From an uncultured Bacteroidota bacterium (GTDB lineage: Bacteria; Bacteroidota; Bacteroidia; Flavobacteriales; Flavobacteriaceae), in the NCBI GenBank assembly GCA_902517245.1, contig CABYBK010000006.1, positions 1-44,594 on the forward strand: 44,594 nucleotides of DNA, written 5' to 3'. Positions within the stretch are counted from its first letter, which is position 1; each line of letters starts with the position of its first letter. Made by a program: the position numbers and the translations under genes. Shown piece by piece: positions 20,663 to 34,503 of this stretch. The notes beneath the pieces are model-generated. The model made no database searches. It was not told where the DNA came from and saw only the letters and a list, made by a program, of their open reading frames with translations.

Positions 20663-20714
20663 TAAATCTCTTTTTTTAAATAATCCTCAATTTTGAATAT
20701 TTATTTTTATTATA

Positions 20715-20730
20715 CCCTAAATTTTTAGGG
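20715..20730. promoter_or_regulatory. Palindromic operator CCCTA-N6-TAGGG upstream of porin-glnK-amt
   Basis: Perfect 5-6-5 inverted repeat CCCTAAATTTTTAGGG followed directly by GTTAA. The same arms, spacing and trailing GGTTAA occur once more in the window, at 33387-33402 between the two glutamine synthetase genes. In both places a G-run ending in T sits exactly 56 bp downstream of the last G of the palindrome. The arrangement suits a dimeric DNA-binding protein; CRP/FNR-family proteins use this 5-6-5 geometry. The role in nitrogen control is inferred from the genes it precedes. Confidence 0.6.
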
Positions 20731-20778
20731 GTTAAAATTTTATTAATCCTAATTTTTGAAATTACAACCCCTTTTTTA

Positions 20779-20809
20779 TTGGGGGTATTTTTTTTATAAT
20801 ATATGTTTG
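20779..20809 (+). promoter_or_regulatory. Bacteroidota-type promoter of porin-glnK-amt
   Basis: A -7 element TATGTTTG at 20802-20809 matches TAnnTTTG. A TTG at 20779-20781 lies 20 bp upstream, at -33 distance, and merges into the run GGGGGT (20781-20786). This G-run also pairs with ACCCC at 20767-20771, so the two form a short inverted repeat. Transcription would start about 20 bases before the porin ATG at 20837. Confidence 0.55.
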
Positions 20810-20836
20810 CGAAAAATTAATCACTAACATATTATT

Positions 20837-21859
20837 ATGAAAAAATCAAATAAATTTTTTACGCGAGTGTTTATATGCACAATGATGACATTTACCGCTA
20901 TAAATGCCCAAGATACCGATGATAGTGTGCCACAGCCAACTTTTAATTTTAGTGGAACTGTTGACACTTATTTTAGAAGTAGTTTTACTGAAGATCCTGT
21001 TGCACCTGGCACTTCTTTTGCAAACCTTAATGGATTTTCACTAGGAATGGCAAACTTCATCGTTTCATACGAGGGAGAAAAATCAGGATTTGTAGCTGAT
21101 GTAGTTTTTGGTCCTAGAGGTTCTGATGCAGTATTTGGATCTGTTGGAAACTCTTCTGAGATGGTAAACCAATTATATGCATATTACAATATCGCAGAGG
21201 GTGTTACTATAACACTTGGTAACTTTAATACCTTTTTAGGTTATGAAGTTATTTCACCAGCTGCTAACTTTAATTATTCTACATCTTATATGTTTTCATA
21301 TGGTCCGTTCTCTCACACAGGAGCTAAAGTTGATTTCTCAATTTCTGAAGATGTATCCTTAATGATTGGTGTGTTTAATCAAACCGATCAAACTGAGGCT
21401 AACTATGACAGATATACAGCCTTTGGTGCTCAGCTAGGACTTTACGGTCAATATATTAACCTATTGGCGGGTGATGAGTACTTCCAGCTTGATTATACTG
21501 GAGGATTTGACTTATCTGATAGTTTCTTTTTAGGAATTAATGCTACAACAGCAACTTTAGCTGGAGATACTGGATTTGCTGGTATTGCTTTATACCCTCA
21601 ATTAACAACAAGTGATAGTTTTGCTATCGGTTTACGTGGAGAATTTTTCTCTGAAACAGACGGCTTTGGCGCATTAGTTTCAGACGGAGATGCTGATAAC
21701 TTTTCTCTTACTCTAACAGGAAGTTTTACTTCTGGAAACTTTATGTTTAAACCTGAATTAAGGTTAGACTCAGCATCCTCTGAAATATTTGCTATTTCTC
21801 CTACTGAAACATCTGAAAGGCTTACTTCGTTTGTTATGGCTATGATTTATACATTTTAA
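20837..21859 (+). CDS. BBP2-type outer-membrane beta-barrel porin linked to ammonium uptake
   Basis: Exported outer-membrane protein of 340 residues. A signal peptide of about 24 residues ends at AINAQ. The mature part shows alternating beta-strand character, Gly/aromatic-rich strands such as FSGTVDTYFRSSF, GFVADVVFGPRG and GVTITLGNFNTFLGYEV, and a terminal strand ending in Phe (FVMAMIYTF), as expected for barrel insertion. It resembles the OmpL-like BBP2 family. Co-transcription with glnK and amt (18-bp gap) suggests a role in letting ammonium or small nitrogen compounds through the outer membrane. Confidence 0.83.
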   Translation: MKKSNKFFTRVFICTMMTFTAINAQDTDDSVPQPTFNFSGTVDTYFRSSFTEDPVAPGTSFANLNGFSLGMANFIVSYEGEKSGFVADVVFGPRGSDAVFGSVGNSSEMVNQLYAYYNIAEGVTITLGNFNTFLGYEVISPAANFNYSTSYMFSYGPFSHTGAKVDFSISEDVSLMIGVFNQTDQTEANYDRYTAFGAQLGLYGQYINLLAGDEYFQLDYTGGFDLSDSFFLGINATTATLAGDTGFAGIALYPQLTTSDSFAIGLRGEFFSETDGFGALVSDGDADNFSLTLTGSFTSGNFMFKPELRLDSASSEIFAISPTETSERLTSFVMAMIYTF

Positions 21860-21877: not shown

Positions 21878-22216
21878 ATGAAAAAAATTGAGGCAATAAT
21901 TCGAAAGTCAAAGTTTGACGATGTTAAAAAGTCCCTGCATAATGTTGAAGTAAATTTTTTCAGCTATTGGGATGTAACTGGAGTTGGAAATGAAAAACAG
22001 GGACACGTATATCGTGGTATCAGTTACAGCACCTCCGAAATTCAAAGACGTTTTTTGTCTATCGTAGTAAATGACGATTTTGTTCAACCTACAATAGATG
22101 CCATTATAAATTCTGCTGCAACTGACAAGGTGGGTGATGGTAAAATTTTCATCACCACTGTAGATGAAGCCTATCGAATTAGGACGGGCGAAAAAGGAGG
22201 AAATTCACTTAATTAA
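21878..22216 (+). CDS. glnK: PII nitrogen-regulatory protein
   Basis: Trimeric PII signal protein of 112 residues that senses 2-oxoglutarate and ATP/ADP and gates Amt. The T-loop region contains HVYRGISY (Tyr45 and Tyr50); Tyr50 corresponds to the uridylylated Tyr51 of enteric PII with a one-residue offset. The B-loop KVGDGKIFI and C-loop IRTGEKGG are canonical. Its position directly before amt (20-bp gap) defines it as a GlnK-type paralogue. Whether Tyr50 is modified cannot be told; no GlnD is present in the window. Confidence 0.94.
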   Translation: MKKIEAIIRKSKFDDVKKSLHNVEVNFFSYWDVTGVGNEKQGHVYRGISYSTSEIQRRFLSIVVNDDFVQPTIDAIINSAATDKVGDGKIFITTVDEAYRIRTGEKGGNSLN

Positions 22217-22236: not shown

Positions 22237-23478
22237 ATGGAAAGTACTGCACTTTTTACTGCTAATAATGTATGGATGATGATCTGTACAGCACTTGTAT
22301 TTTTTATGCATTTAGGCTTCTCTTTTTTAGAGATTGGTCTTACACGTCAGAAGAATACAGTAAACATTTTATTTAAAAATTTCTTTGTTATCACCGCAGG
22401 GTTATTACTTTATGCTATAGGTGGTTTTAACTTAATGTATCCTGGATTTGAAGAAGGAGCTACTGGCTTTTTTAAATTTGCAGGATTTGGGATTGAGCCT
22501 CCAGAAGGGGGCATGACTTCTGCCTATGCTGATGGAGGTTACACCTGGTGGACCGATTTTCTTTTTCAAGGCATGTTTGCTGCCACTGCAGCAACAATAG
22601 TTTCAGGTGCTGTAGCTGAGAGAATTAAATTGAATAGCTTTATGCTTTTCACTATTGTATATGTTGGATTAGTATATCCAATTATAGGATCATGGAAATG
22701 GGGTGGTGGATTTTTAGATCAGTGGGGTTTTTACGATTTTGCAGGGTCTACCCTAGTTCATTCTGTAGGTGGATGGGCTGCACTAATTGCTGTATATTTT
22801 TTAGGAGCTCGAGTAGGTAAGTTTGGTTCTGATGGAAAACCTAAAGCAATTCCAGGACATAACATTCCGGTTGCTGCTGCTGGAGTATTAATACTTTGGT
22901 TAGGGTGGTTTGGATTTAATGGTGGCTCTGTATTATCTGCTGATCCTGAATTAACTTCTTTAACATTAGTAACAACTTGTCTTGCTGCAGCTGCTGGCGG
23001 AATAGCTTCAAGCATTGTTTCTAATATTTTATACAAAAATTTTGACTTAACTATGTTTATGAATGGCGTCTTGGGGGGGCTTGTTGGGATCACGGCTGGT
23101 GCTGATCTTATGAGTCCTATGGACGCCATATTTATTGGAATTATTGCTGGGGCTATTATTGTTTTTGGTGTTTCTCTGATAGACAGACTAAAGCTAGATG
23201 ACCCAGTTGGTGCAATTGCAGTCCATTTAATATGTGGAATTTGGGGAACATTAGCGGTAGGTGTTTTCGGAGATATGGCTGGAATAGATCAATTTATAAT
23301 CCAGTTAATTGGTGTGGGTATAGTTGGCGCGTTTTCAGTTATTACTTCTTTTATTATAATTATTACTATTAAAAAAACCATTGGTCTTCGTGTTGAAAAT
23401 GAGGAAGAAATAAAAGGTCTCGATCTGGCTGAACATGGAATGGATGCGTATGCAGATTTCCGATTAAACCAGCATTAA
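22237..23478 (+). CDS. amt: Ammonium transporter Amt
   Basis: Trimeric ammonium channel of 413 residues with about 11 membrane helices. The twin pore histidines are visible as His175 (LVHSVGGW) and His330 (AVHLICGIWGTL). The periplasmic vestibule and gating regions, such as DFLFQGMFAATAATIVSGAVAER and HNIPVAAAGVLILWLGWFGFN split across helices, are intact. Its cytoplasmic C-terminus (about 380-413) offers the usual GlnK docking surface. It ends the porin-glnK-amt operon and is followed by a strong terminator. Confidence 0.96.
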   Translation: MESTALFTANNVWMMICTALVFFMHLGFSFLEIGLTRQKNTVNILFKNFFVITAGLLLYAIGGFNLMYPGFEEGATGFFKFAGFGIEPPEGGMTSAYADGGYTWWTDFLFQGMFAATAATIVSGAVAERIKLNSFMLFTIVYVGLVYPIIGSWKWGGGFLDQWGFYDFAGSTLVHSVGGWAALIAVYFLGARVGKFGSDGKPKAIPGHNIPVAAAGVLILWLGWFGFNGGSVLSADPELTSLTLVTTCLAAAAGGIASSIVSNILYKNFDLTMFMNGVLGGLVGITAGADLMSPMDAIFIGIIAGAIIVFGVSLIDRLKLDDPVGAIAVHLICGIWGTLAVGVFGDMAGIDQFIIQLIGVGIVGAFSVITSFIIIITIKKTIGLRVENEEEIKGLDLAEHGMDAYADFRLNQH

Positions 23479-31116: not shown

Positions 31117-33297
31117 TTAACGAATAAACAATAACTCTCTATATTTTGCGAGTGGCCAAATAGAATCATCAATTGTGAGCTCTAATTTATCACAGTGATC
31201 TCGTATTTCATTTAAATAAGGAATCACCATCTTGGCATAAGCCATAGCCTTTTTATTTACATCTTCAATTTTGTTTGCATTTTTTCGTGCTAACACCATT
31301 TGATCAACACCATTTATTATTTTTTTTATGTGATCAGATATTTCTTCTAAGATTATTAGTTGATCATTTGCATGAGATTTAAACTTTTCACCAAAAATTT
31401 CTTTAATACCCTTTACATTTTTAATCAATATATTTTGATATCTAATTGCTGTAGGAATAATATGATTTAATGACATATCACCTAATGTTCTAGATTCAAT
31501 CTGTATCTCTGATATATAAGACTGCATATCTACTTGACATCGTGCATGTAATTCAACAGAACTAAAAACTTTTAAATTTTCAAAAAGATCTACAGAAGAC
31601 TTATCAAGATAAGCAAGAAGTGACTCGGGTGTTAGTTTCATGTCTCTTTTATTGGTTTTTTCTGATGTATTTGCCTTCTTTTTCCCCTCATAATCTTCCA
31701 ATAAAAAATCTTTTATCTCGATAATTATTTCCCGTAAAATATTGAAAATAGCATCATCTTTTTTCATGTTTTTAGTATCTACTAAATTATCAACACCTTT
31801 CTTAAAATCTAGAAGTTGCTCTGTGACTATTGCGTTTAAAACTGTTATTGCTTTAGCAGAATTTGATTTTGATCCCACCGATCTGTATTCAAATTTATTT
31901 CCAGTGAACGCAAATGGAGAAGTACGATCGCTATCTGTATTGTCTAATAAAATTTCAGGAATTTTACCAATCACATTTAATTTTAAATCCGTTTTTTCTT
32001 TTGGCGACAACTTTCCCTTTGATACATTTTCTAAATCTTCAAGGACTTGAGTTAGATGTTTTCCAATAAAGATTGAGAGAATTGCCGTTGGAGCATCATT
32101 TTGACCTAATCGTAAATCATTACTTGCTGATACTGATGAAGCTCTTAATAATGCTTCATGTTTTAAGACAGCTGCAATTGAGTTAACAAAGAATGATAAA
32201 AATTGTAAATTACCCATAGGAGTCTTACTTGGACTCAAAAGGTTTATACCCGTATTAGTGTTCAATGACCAATTTGTATGCTTACCAGAACCATTAATAT
32301 GATGAAATGGTTTTTCATGTAAAAGAACTATAAAGTTATGCTTGTAGGCAACTTTATCCATCAAATCCATCAACAAAGCGTTATGATCAACCGCAATGTT
32401 TGCAGCTTCGAAAACAGATGCAATTTCATATTGACTTGGAGCTACTTCATTATGTTTTGTTTTAATTGGTATTCCCAGGAGTCTACACTCAAATTCTAGC
32501 TCATTCAGACAGATACTTACTCTGGAAGGTATTGAACCAAAATAATGATCACTAAATTGTTGGCCTTTAGAAGGCATGTGTCCCATTAGAGTTCTCCCTG
32601 TTAACATTAAATCTGGTCTTGTTTGAGCTAGTGCACGGTCAACAAGAAAAAATTCTTGCTCCCAGCCCATAGTTGCAGTGACTTTACTGATATTCTTGTC
32701 AAAAAAACGACAAACTTCTGTAGCTGCCTCGTCTAATTTTTCAAGTGATTTTAAAAGGGGGCTTTTATAATCCAATGCCACTCCGGTATATGAAACAAAA
32801 GTTGTTGGGATACATAGGGTTGTTTCATATAAAAAAGCTGGCGAGGATGGATCCCATGTAGAATATCCTCTTGCTTCAAAAGTATTTCTAATACCACTAT
32901 TTGAAAAGTTCGGAAAATCAGGGATTTGCTGGACCAACTGTTCTCCTTCAAATTTTTCAAGTTGATTTCCAGAATTATCTAAATCAAAAAAAGAATCGTG
33001 CTTTTCTGCCGTAGCACCAGTTAGTGGTTGAAACCAATGAGTAAAATGTGTAGCACCATTTGAAATTGCCCATGACTTCATCGCCGCTGCAATTTGGTCA
33101 GCAATAATTGAGCTTATAGGTATTTGCTTCTCAATAGATTGCTGCATCTGGTAAAATGTTTTCTCGCTTAAGTATTTTTGCAACTTAGTTCGATCAAATA
33201 CATGCTTAGCAAAATCTCTTGGATCAATCTTAATTTTTTTAACAAGATTTGGTTCTGAGGATAGTTTTTTAAGTATTTTTTTTCGTAGCGTTTGCAT
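31117..33297 (-). CDS. glnN: Type III glutamine synthetase
   Basis: Large hexameric or dodecameric GSIII, ATP-dependent ammonium assimilation into glutamine. At 726 residues it has the extended N-terminal GSIII domain (THFTHWFQPLTGATAEKHDSFF) and catalytic motifs GWEQEFFLVD (metal Glu), KHNEVAPSQYEIA and INGSGKHTNWSLNTN, with a long helical C-terminal extension (about 500-726). Divergent from the type II gene, and they share a 198-bp control region. A perfect -7 element lies 24-32 bp upstream of its start. Confidence 0.96.
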   Translation of the reverse strand: MQTLRKKILKKLSSEPNLVKKIKIDPRDFAKHVFDRTKLQKYLSEKTFYQMQQSIEKQIPISSIIADQIAAAMKSWAISNGATHFTHWFQPLTGATAEKHDSFFDLDNSGNQLEKFEGEQLVQQIPDFPNFSNSGIRNTFEARGYSTWDPSSPAFLYETTLCIPTTFVSYTGVALDYKSPLLKSLEKLDEAATEVCRFFDKNISKVTATMGWEQEFFLVDRALAQTRPDLMLTGRTLMGHMPSKGQQFSDHYFGSIPSRVSICLNELEFECRLLGIPIKTKHNEVAPSQYEIASVFEAANIAVDHNALLMDLMDKVAYKHNFIVLLHEKPFHHINGSGKHTNWSLNTNTGINLLSPSKTPMGNLQFLSFFVNSIAAVLKHEALLRASSVSASNDLRLGQNDAPTAILSIFIGKHLTQVLEDLENVSKGKLSPKEKTDLKLNVIGKIPEILLDNTDSDRTSPFAFTGNKFEYRSVGSKSNSAKAITVLNAIVTEQLLDFKKGVDNLVDTKNMKKDDAIFNILREIIIEIKDFLLEDYEGKKKANTSEKTNKRDMKLTPESLLAYLDKSSVDLFENLKVFSSVELHARCQVDMQSYISEIQIESRTLGDMSLNHIIPTAIRYQNILIKNVKGIKEIFGEKFKSHANDQLIILEEISDHIKKIINGVDQMVLARKNANKIEDVNKKAMAYAKMVIPYLNEIRDHCDKLELTIDDSIWPLAKYRELLFIR

Positions 33298-33321
33298 AAA
33301 ATAACGAGATTATTAAGCTCT

Positions 33322-33329
33322 CAAAGATA
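33322..33329 (-). promoter_or_regulatory. Putative -7 element of glnN (GSIII)
   Basis: Read on the minus strand the sequence is TATCTTTG, an exact TAnnTTTG match. It ends about 25 bases before the glnN ATG, giving an ordinary short leader. No convincing -33 TTTG is present at the expected distance, which fits an activator-dependent promoter. The shared palindrome lies 57-73 bp further upstream. Confidence 0.45.
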
Positions 33330-33386
33330 GGAATTTTGAATATTTGTTTGTGATTATTAAAAATATTGAGATAAATTAAATTTTTG

Positions 33387-33402
33387 CCCTAAAAAAATAG
33401 GG
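33387..33402. promoter_or_regulatory. Palindromic operator CCCTA-N6-TAGGG between the two glutamine synthetase genes
   Basis: Second copy of the 5-6-5 palindrome seen before porin-glnK-amt. Here the core is CCCTAAAAAAATAGGG, followed by GGTTAAT. On the GSII side, a run of six G plus T (33452-33458) ends exactly 56 bp downstream of the palindrome, as at the amt operon. Because it is centred in the divergent region it could act on both glnN and the type II gene. Confidence 0.6.
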
Positions 33403-33451
33403 GGTTAATAAAAATTAATTATTGTTAATTTCTTTATTGCATATCATAAAA

Positions 33452-33479
33452 GGGGGGTCATTTTAATCCATTATTTTAG
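33452..33479 (+). promoter_or_regulatory. Putative promoter of GSII with G-run in place of -33
   Basis: The best -7 candidate is TATTTTAG at 33472-33479 (one mismatch to TAnnTTTG). The -33 position has no TTTG but carries GGGGGGT (33452-33458). The same substitution is partly seen at the amt operon promoter. The start codon follows at 33496, so the leader would be about 10 bases. Confidence 0.4.
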
Positions 33480-33495
33480 TTAAAAATTTTTAATC

Positions 33496-34503
33496 ATGAG
33501 TAAAGCTAAACTTGAATATATATGGTTAGATGGTTATCAACCGACAGCTAACCTTAGAAGTAAAACTAAAATTGTAACTGATTTTAAAGGAACTTTAAAT
33601 GACTGCCCAATGTGGTCTTTTGATGGATCTTCAACACTTCAAGCAGAAGGAAATTCGTCTGACTGTTTATTGAAACCTGTAGCATTGTATCAGGATCCTG
33701 ATCGAAAAAATGGATGGCTAGTTATGACAGAGGTTTTAAATGCAGACGGAACCCCGCACATTTCTAATGGAAGAGCAACTATTGACGACGATGATAATGA
33801 CTTCTGGTTCGGTTTTGAACAAGAATACTTTTTGTGGGACCCAGAAACAAACCTTCCATTAGGCTTTCCGAGAGACCAAACTCCTCAAGGTCAGTTCTAT
33901 TGTTCTGTAGGTGCCAAAAATGCTTTTGGTCGTGAAATGATTGAAGAACATCTTGATCAATGCATTGAAGCTGGAATAAATGTTGAAGGAATAAATGCTG
34001 AGGTAGCCTCTGGACAGTGGGAGTATCAATGCTTTGCTCAGGGAGCAAAACTTGCTGGGGATGAGATGTGGATATCTCGATACCTATTAGAGCGGTTAGG
34101 TGAAAAGTATGGTTTAGCTATTGATTGGCACCCAAAACCTCTCGGTGATACTGATTGGAATGGCTCTGGTATGCATGCTAATTTCTCTAATGAAATCCTC
34201 CGAACATGTGGTTCTCAGGAAACTTACGAAAAGATTTGTGAAGCCTTTCGACCTGTTGTTAAAGAACATATAGAAGTATATGGAGCTCACAACGATCAGC
34301 GTCTAACAGGAAAACACGAGACTCAATCAATCGACGAATTCAGCTTTGGTATATCAGATCGAGGAGCTTCAATTAGGATCCCGATTTTAACTGTAGAGAA
34401 AGGATGGAAAGGTTGGCTAGAAGATAGAAGACCAGCTTCTAATGGAGATCCATACAAAATTGCCTCTCGAATAATAAAAACAGTTAAATCAGCTAAAATT
34501 TAG
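33496..34503 (+). CDS. Type II (eukaryotic-like) glutamine synthetase
   Basis: Compact 335-residue GSII. Motifs seen: LDGYQPTANLRSKTKI, WSFDGSSTLQAEG, the metal Glu in FGFEQEYFLWD, EVASGQWEYQ, and the ammonium/glutamate site GSGMHANFSN and RLTGKHET. This form is decameric in eukaryotes. Marine Flavobacteriia often carry it alongside GSIII. The upstream palindrome links it to the ammonium-uptake operon. A hairpin terminator follows the stop. Confidence 0.93.
   Translation: MSKAKLEYIWLDGYQPTANLRSKTKIVTDFKGTLNDCPMWSFDGSSTLQAEGNSSDCLLKPVALYQDPDRKNGWLVMTEVLNADGTPHISNGRATIDDDDNDFWFGFEQEYFLWDPETNLPLGFPRDQTPQGQFYCSVGAKNAFGREMIEEHLDQCIEAGINVEGINAEVASGQWEYQCFAQGAKLAGDEMWISRYLLERLGEKYGLAIDWHPKPLGDTDWNGSGMHANFSNEILRTCGSQETYEKICEAFRPVVKEHIEVYGAHNDQRLTGKHETQSIDEFSFGISDRGASIRIPILTVEKGWKGWLEDRRPASNGDPYKIASRIIKTVKSAKI

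Follow-up and report, generated by a model that had tools for sequence, protein, structure and literature searches.

Paired palindromes as a candidate conserved operator of nitrogen-assimilation genes in Flavobacteriaceae

Palindromes near the ammonium transport and glutamine synthetase genes

The window (the whole stretch of DNA analysed, 44,594 nucleotides) belongs to an assembly of 1.48 Mb that is 62% complete. It carries an operon for a porin, a PII protein and an ammonium transporter and, further along, two divergent glutamine synthetase genes. The features discussed below are the following, the putative operators being given without a strand.

20714 to 20732 (core 20715 to 20730), no strand: putative distal operator of the porin-PII-Amt operon, ACCCTAAATTTTTAGGGGT, an exact palindrome at a genus-conserved position
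20767 to 20786, no strand: putative proximal operator of the porin-PII-Amt promoter, ACCCCTTTTTTATTGGGGGT, also present in the genus
20802 to 20809, forward strand: -7 box TATGTTTG (TAnnTTTG) of the porin-PII-Amt promoter
20837 to 21859, forward strand: BBP2 beta-barrel porin, first gene of the operon (PF07642, 3e-56)
21878 to 22216, forward strand: PII nitrogen regulatory protein (PF00543, 2e-22)
22237 to 23478, forward strand: ammonium transporter, Amt (PF00909, 8e-115)
31117 to 33297, reverse strand: glutamine synthetase type III (GSIII), 726 aa, divergent from GSII (PF12437, 2e-65)
33322 to 33329, reverse strand: -7 box TATCTTTG of the divergent GSIII promoter, at a fixed distance to the operator centre
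33387 to 33402, no strand: putative operator CCCTAAAAAAATAGGG in the divergent GSIII/GSII intergenic region, near -108 relative to the start of GSII in the genus
33452 to 33458, no strand: proximal half-site GGGGGGT of the GSII promoter, where a G-run is kept in the GSII promoters of the genus
33472 to 33479, forward strand: -7 box TATTTTAG of the GSII promoter (TATTTTTG in relatives), from promoter comparison
33496 to 34503, forward strand: glutamine synthetase, short GSII-type, 335 aa (PF00120/PF03951)

An earlier note on this DNA had reported two identical palindromes, and both were found exactly where it had placed them, CCCTAAATTTTTAGGG at 20715-20730 and CCCTAAAAAAATAGGG at 33387-33402. 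The first stands before the amt operon, as described, but the second, which had been assigned to GSII, lies between the divergent GSIII and GSII genes and not before GSII alone. In the whole assembly (1,477,012 bases) CCCTA-N6-TAGGG has two exact matches, both before nitrogen genes, for a chance expectation of about 0.5 per assembly and 0.016 per window under a first-order Markov model, and its reversed control pattern has no match in the assembly. When the spacer was restricted to A and T (CCCY-W8-RGGG), three matches were obtained in the assembly, all three inside the window; the third, at 20769-20784, is the second site of the amt operon, overlooked in the first reading of the sequence. A laxer pattern (ACCC-N9..11-GGGT) was uninformative. 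The fuller consensus, TACCCC(T)-N6..8-(A)GGGGTA, is wider than the CCCTA arms first described, the full site covering about 20-22 bp with TACCCC(T), an AT-rich centre and (A)GGGGTA.

Promoter architecture, conservation and further candidate targets

The palindrome occupies a fixed place in most of the 30 GSII upstream regions and 22 amt-operon upstream regions of the genus. The amt promoters of the genus hold two palindromes joined by a conserved linker, (A)TAAAAAT, with a TAnnTTTG box after the proximal one; GGTTAA and ATTAAT, which had been reported to follow both sites, are present 3' of both palindromes in the window but lie outside this conserved part. The centre of the distal site is 80-84 bp from the TAnnTTTG -7 box in 51 of 54 promoters (83 bp at the amt operon of the window), the distal and proximal sites of the genus amt promoters are separated by 51-54 bp, that is, five helical turns, and the proximal site lies 26-31 bp from the -7 box in most of the 54 promoters. 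At GSII the proximal site is often incomplete, most GSII promoters having only a half-site at that place. The spacer between CCC and GGG is 10 in most sites and 11 in a good share of them, a variation that is loose for a rigid dimer and counts against the mechanism proposed below. In most site-bearing genomes of the genus, the GSIII promoter has a TAnnTTTG, intact or with one mismatch, 68-69 bp from the operator centre, and this fixed position indicates that a single operator probably serves both divergent synthetase genes.

Retention of the sites in the two promoters is concerted. Among the 20 genomes of the genus in which both promoters were readable, 18 have the GS and the amt site, two (G035 and G036) have neither, and none is discordant. 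These two fall in a clade that lost the sites, together with G026 and G028-G030. The same joint pattern was observed at L182, L187, L192 and L194, where both sites are absent, and at L210, where both are present. When the GSII upstream regions of named genomes were read, the site was present in 34 of 65 loci, at 110-143 bp before the GSII start codon in the other Flavobacteriaceae. The carriers include Winogradskyella, Kordia, Cellulophaga, Croceitalea, Euzebyella, Sinomicrobium, Jejuia, Bizionia, Aquimarina pacifica, Aurantibacter and many marine MAGs; among the same 65 loci, the site is absent from GSII in most other Aquimarina and in Flammeovirgaceae and Cyclobacteriaceae.

Other elements were seen in promoters devoid of the site. 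The GSII upstream regions of six site-less Aquimarina loci (L177, L178, L180, L183, L184 and L186) have in common AATTAAGTAnTAnTACGTAAAT before the -7 box, and the crcB-PII/amt intergenic regions of the site-less L182, L187 and L194 have in common AATTACGTACTTCATAATTCT before the amt operon. In L188, L190, L191 and L197 (Flammeovirgaceae and related Cytophagales), the GSII promoters have in common a different pair of inverted repeats, AAGGTTTATTTTTTACCTT and GGTTAAAAATAAACCTTGA, at some 30-190 bp upstream of GSII, and this pair is perhaps an analogous operator. A Bacteroidota-like GSII (77%) is also encoded on L239, a contig filed as Candidatus Poseidoniales archaeon, which was thus probably mis-binned.

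A sequence-only model of the double promoter was trained on the GSII promoters, the amt promoters of the genus and L210, and was run on 15 named Flavobacteriaceae genomes from outside the genus and six genomes of the genus; the training set held no gltB (glutamate synthase) or ald (alanine dehydrogenase) promoter and no amt promoter of the 15 genomes. At E<=2.2e-4, the 15 genomes gave 37 distinct places, all 37 at GSII, amt, gltB or ald: 15 at GSII (15/15 genomes), 14 at the amt/PII/porin operon in 13 genomes, three at gltB and five at ald. The best score among 56 control loci was 14.9 bits, against about 24-60 bits for the targets. On inspection, nearly all amt promoters found by the model show the full two-palindrome layout, and in Kordia, two Winogradskyella, Jejuia and Aquimarina pacifica the amt site is common to a divergent gltB. 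The gltB genes of both Euzebyella are preceded by two palindromes at the right spacing, with no -7 box where it usually lies; in Croceitalea, ald is preceded by a distal palindrome, a proximal half-site and a -7 box, and in both Cellulophaga by one palindrome and a half-site. Weak matches, which may be terminators, were obtained at ald in Euzebyella and at gltB in Croceitalea, and two sites near gltB and ald in G006 were set aside, having been found to follow other genes. No regulator gene was among the targets recovered.

The next matches of the model lie near nitrate-assimilation genes, in Aquimarina pacifica (3e-4) and Cellulophaga fucicola (7e-4); they are only suggestive as targets, and the one in C. 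fucicola may be a terminator. In A. pacifica (L382:11280-11840), three ACCCC-type sites precede a 135-aa ORF of no known family beside the nitrate-assimilation genes. The nitrate cluster of C. fucicola (L381:215-10334) encodes a NarX/NarQ-like kinase and a NarL-type response regulator, the gene of the latter being followed by an AAACCCC-TTTTTTT-AAAGGGGTTT hairpin.

Alternative readings and the nature of the regulator

Read as intrinsic terminators of the upstream gene, and not as operators, the palindromes would account for the proximal amt site of the window, which scans as a hairpin followed by T8 with the end of crcB just upstream, as well as for some ald and nas matches located directly after the stop codon of a gene; single-site matches elsewhere are often terminators. 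However, the 5' ends of two divergent genes flank the GS site, and likewise the site between gltB and porin-amt in Winogradskyella, Kordia, Jejuia and Aquimarina, and since divergent 5' ends need no terminator, such a function cannot explain the GSIII/GSII and gltB/amt sites. Moreover, the spacing from site to -7 box is fixed, only 8 of 17 promoters have a T-rich tail after the proximal amt site, and the scan found no terminator in the GS region. We therefore regard a terminator function in place of an operator as very improbable, while the proximal amt site of the window could double as a terminator, the terminator-like hairpin there being seen in the window's genome only. Another reading keeps the operator and changes the sign of the factor, which would be a repressor forming a DNA loop from one site to the other when ammonium is abundant. 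Tandem palindromes at integral turns (51-54 bp) would also suit such a protein, and the proximal site would overlap the polymerase at the -33 region. On the other hand, the start and the region beyond it are free of sites, the only two lying upstream of the -7 box, and GSIII has one site alone, 68-69 bp from its -7 box, a poor position for repression; a looping repressor is in our opinion unlikely. A structured RNA leader was rejected, as Rfam finds only a tRNA in the window and the sites stand upstream of the -7 boxes.

With the palindromes taken as operators, the known nitrogen regulators were considered through their sites. No sigma-54 -24/-12 element (TGGCAC-N5-TTGCW) is found at 20663-20836 or 33298-33495, even with three mismatches, the GlnR/TnrA site TGTNA-N7-TNACA is absent from both promoters with one mismatch allowed, and the promoters contain no NtcA-like site. 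The geometry nevertheless recalls the CRP/FNR family, as the earlier note had proposed: the site is a 5-6-5 dyad with N10 between the outer trimers (N11 variants occur too), and the arms of CCC-N10-GGG are spaced as in CRP and NtcA sites (TGT-N10-ACA). In addition, the tandem arrangement, with 51-54 bp from site to site and distances of about 82 and 29 bp to the -7 box, is similar to that of class III CRP promoters, whose sites are at -41.5 and -93.5. The factor could accordingly be a CRP/FNR protein, the flavobacterial counterpart of cyanobacterial NtcA. The gene content argues against it. The 38 genomes of the genus were searched with the PF00027 cNMP-binding profile, a profile of the commonest orthogroup and a CRP-wide profile, and these detected no CRP/FNR protein in seven genomes whose sites are intact, namely G037 (89% complete), G033 (85%), G009 (85%) and, of lower completeness, G000, G005, G022 and G031. 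The absence from all seven through incompleteness alone would have a chance of about 3e-5 if independent, although an absence seen in incomplete genomes is not absolute. In G032, the only CRP found is an unrelated one, no CRP orthogroup is common to all site-bearing genomes, and not every genome using the site has a detectable CRP/FNR protein. Two CRP/FNR orthogroups (L292-L308) have a patchy distribution in the genus. Thus the geometric part of the earlier proposal fits, the regulator probably lies outside the CRP/FNR family, in this genus at least, and an NtcA counterpart of that family appears quite doubtful.

A regulator from another family, for example a NarL/LuxR-type response regulator or an Lrp/AsnC protein, is a better though still tentative candidate. 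The half-site TACCCCT/AGGGGTA matches the NarL heptamer TACYYMT, Lrp/AsnC proteins prefer GC-ended palindromes with an A/T centre, and in C. fucicola the NarL-type response regulator gene adjoins the weak match before nitrate reductase. NarL dimers, however, use a 7-2-7 arrangement, whereas the spacing here is about 7-8-7 and so is not that of a NarL-type site, and the C. fucicola response regulator, being beside a NarX/NarQ-like kinase, looks like a local nitrate regulator. No conserved regulator gene was found near the sites by Pfam on most ORFs of the window or by ORF clustering over 80 GSII loci; one ORF cluster of the GSII loci (cluster 12), BlaI-like by sequence, was judged unrelated.

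Proposed mechanism and comparison with known systems

The sites themselves, the fixed spacing and the conservation that they show, the way in which they are kept or lost together and their enrichment before nitrogen-assimilation genes all agree with a reading of the palindromes as operators to which a single shared DNA-binding protein attaches to regulate nitrogen assimilation in Flavobacteriaceae. We consider this reading highly likely. The shared nitrogen operator put forward in the earlier note is borne out by the positions kept at orthologues in the genus and in the family, by GS and amt sites being kept or lost together and by the recovery of amt, gltB, ald and GS in the model search; matches scattered or absent in close relatives, which would have spoken against it, were not the pattern obtained. 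Its description as new also stands within the literature searched, where no such operator was found.

The binding protein, the signal to which it answers and its action as an activator, not a repressor, are inferred. One predicted dimer would probably bind each palindrome: at amt, and partly at GSII, the proximal dimer would be adjacent to the RNA polymerase, at about 29 bp from the TAnnTTTG box on its upstream side, and the distal dimer five helical turns further up on the same face of the DNA. This layout suggests cooperative activation under nitrogen limitation, and its likeness to tandem CRP promoters (-41.5/-93.5) suggests an activator. Judged from this geometry, the factor is probably activating. 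The occurrence of a site at a fixed distance before genes of ammonium uptake and ammonium fixation points to a candidate master switch of nitrogen assimilation in marine flavobacteria. A broader reading, to which we give about even credence, is that of a family-wide global nitrogen regulator outside NtrC, NtcA, GlnR/TnrA and AmtR, which would activate, through paired TACCCC-N8..10-GGGGTA operators five turns apart, the glutamine synthetases, ammonium transport with PII, glutamate synthase and alanine dehydrogenase. In the sea, Flavobacteriaceae play a major part in the consumption of algal matter. An operator defined by consensus, spacing and targets offers a direct means of isolating the regulator and allows nitrogen control to be predicted in thousands of genomes. 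The sequence comparisons presented here thus describe a putative conserved nitrogen-assimilation operator of Flavobacteriaceae for which that literature gave no earlier description.

Among the known systems closest to the proposed regulator is the NtcA regulon of cyanobacteria, in which one factor controls glnA, amt, the PII genes and nitrogen assimilation through palindromes with equal arm spacing and a class II-type position. NtcA is a CRP/FNR protein that reads GTA-N8-TAC, in contrast with CCC-N10-GGG here, and a protein of that family went undetected in several site-bearing genomes of the present genus. Tandem CRP promoters of class III in E. coli have two palindromes about 52 bp apart with the proximal one beside the -35/-33 region; the arm sequence differs, the promoter here is of the Bacteroidota -33/-7 type, no matching CRP gene was found in the genus, and the targets are nitrogen rather than carbon genes. 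The NtrC/sigma-54 system of Proteobacteria acts on the same targets (glnA, glnK-amtB, gltBD), whereas the flavobacterial promoters carry TAnnTTTG with no -24/-12 match, and GlnR/TnrA of Bacilli share the target genes but not the TGTNA-N7-TNACA site, which is missing here. Within Bacteroidota, the transcription of amtB, glnK, glnN and gltBD responds to ammonium in Prevotella ruminicola, the available part of that report naming no operator or factor for the response (PMC5552732). Although P. ruminicola belongs to another order, it offers a transcriptional response to ammonium within the same phylum (PMC5552732).
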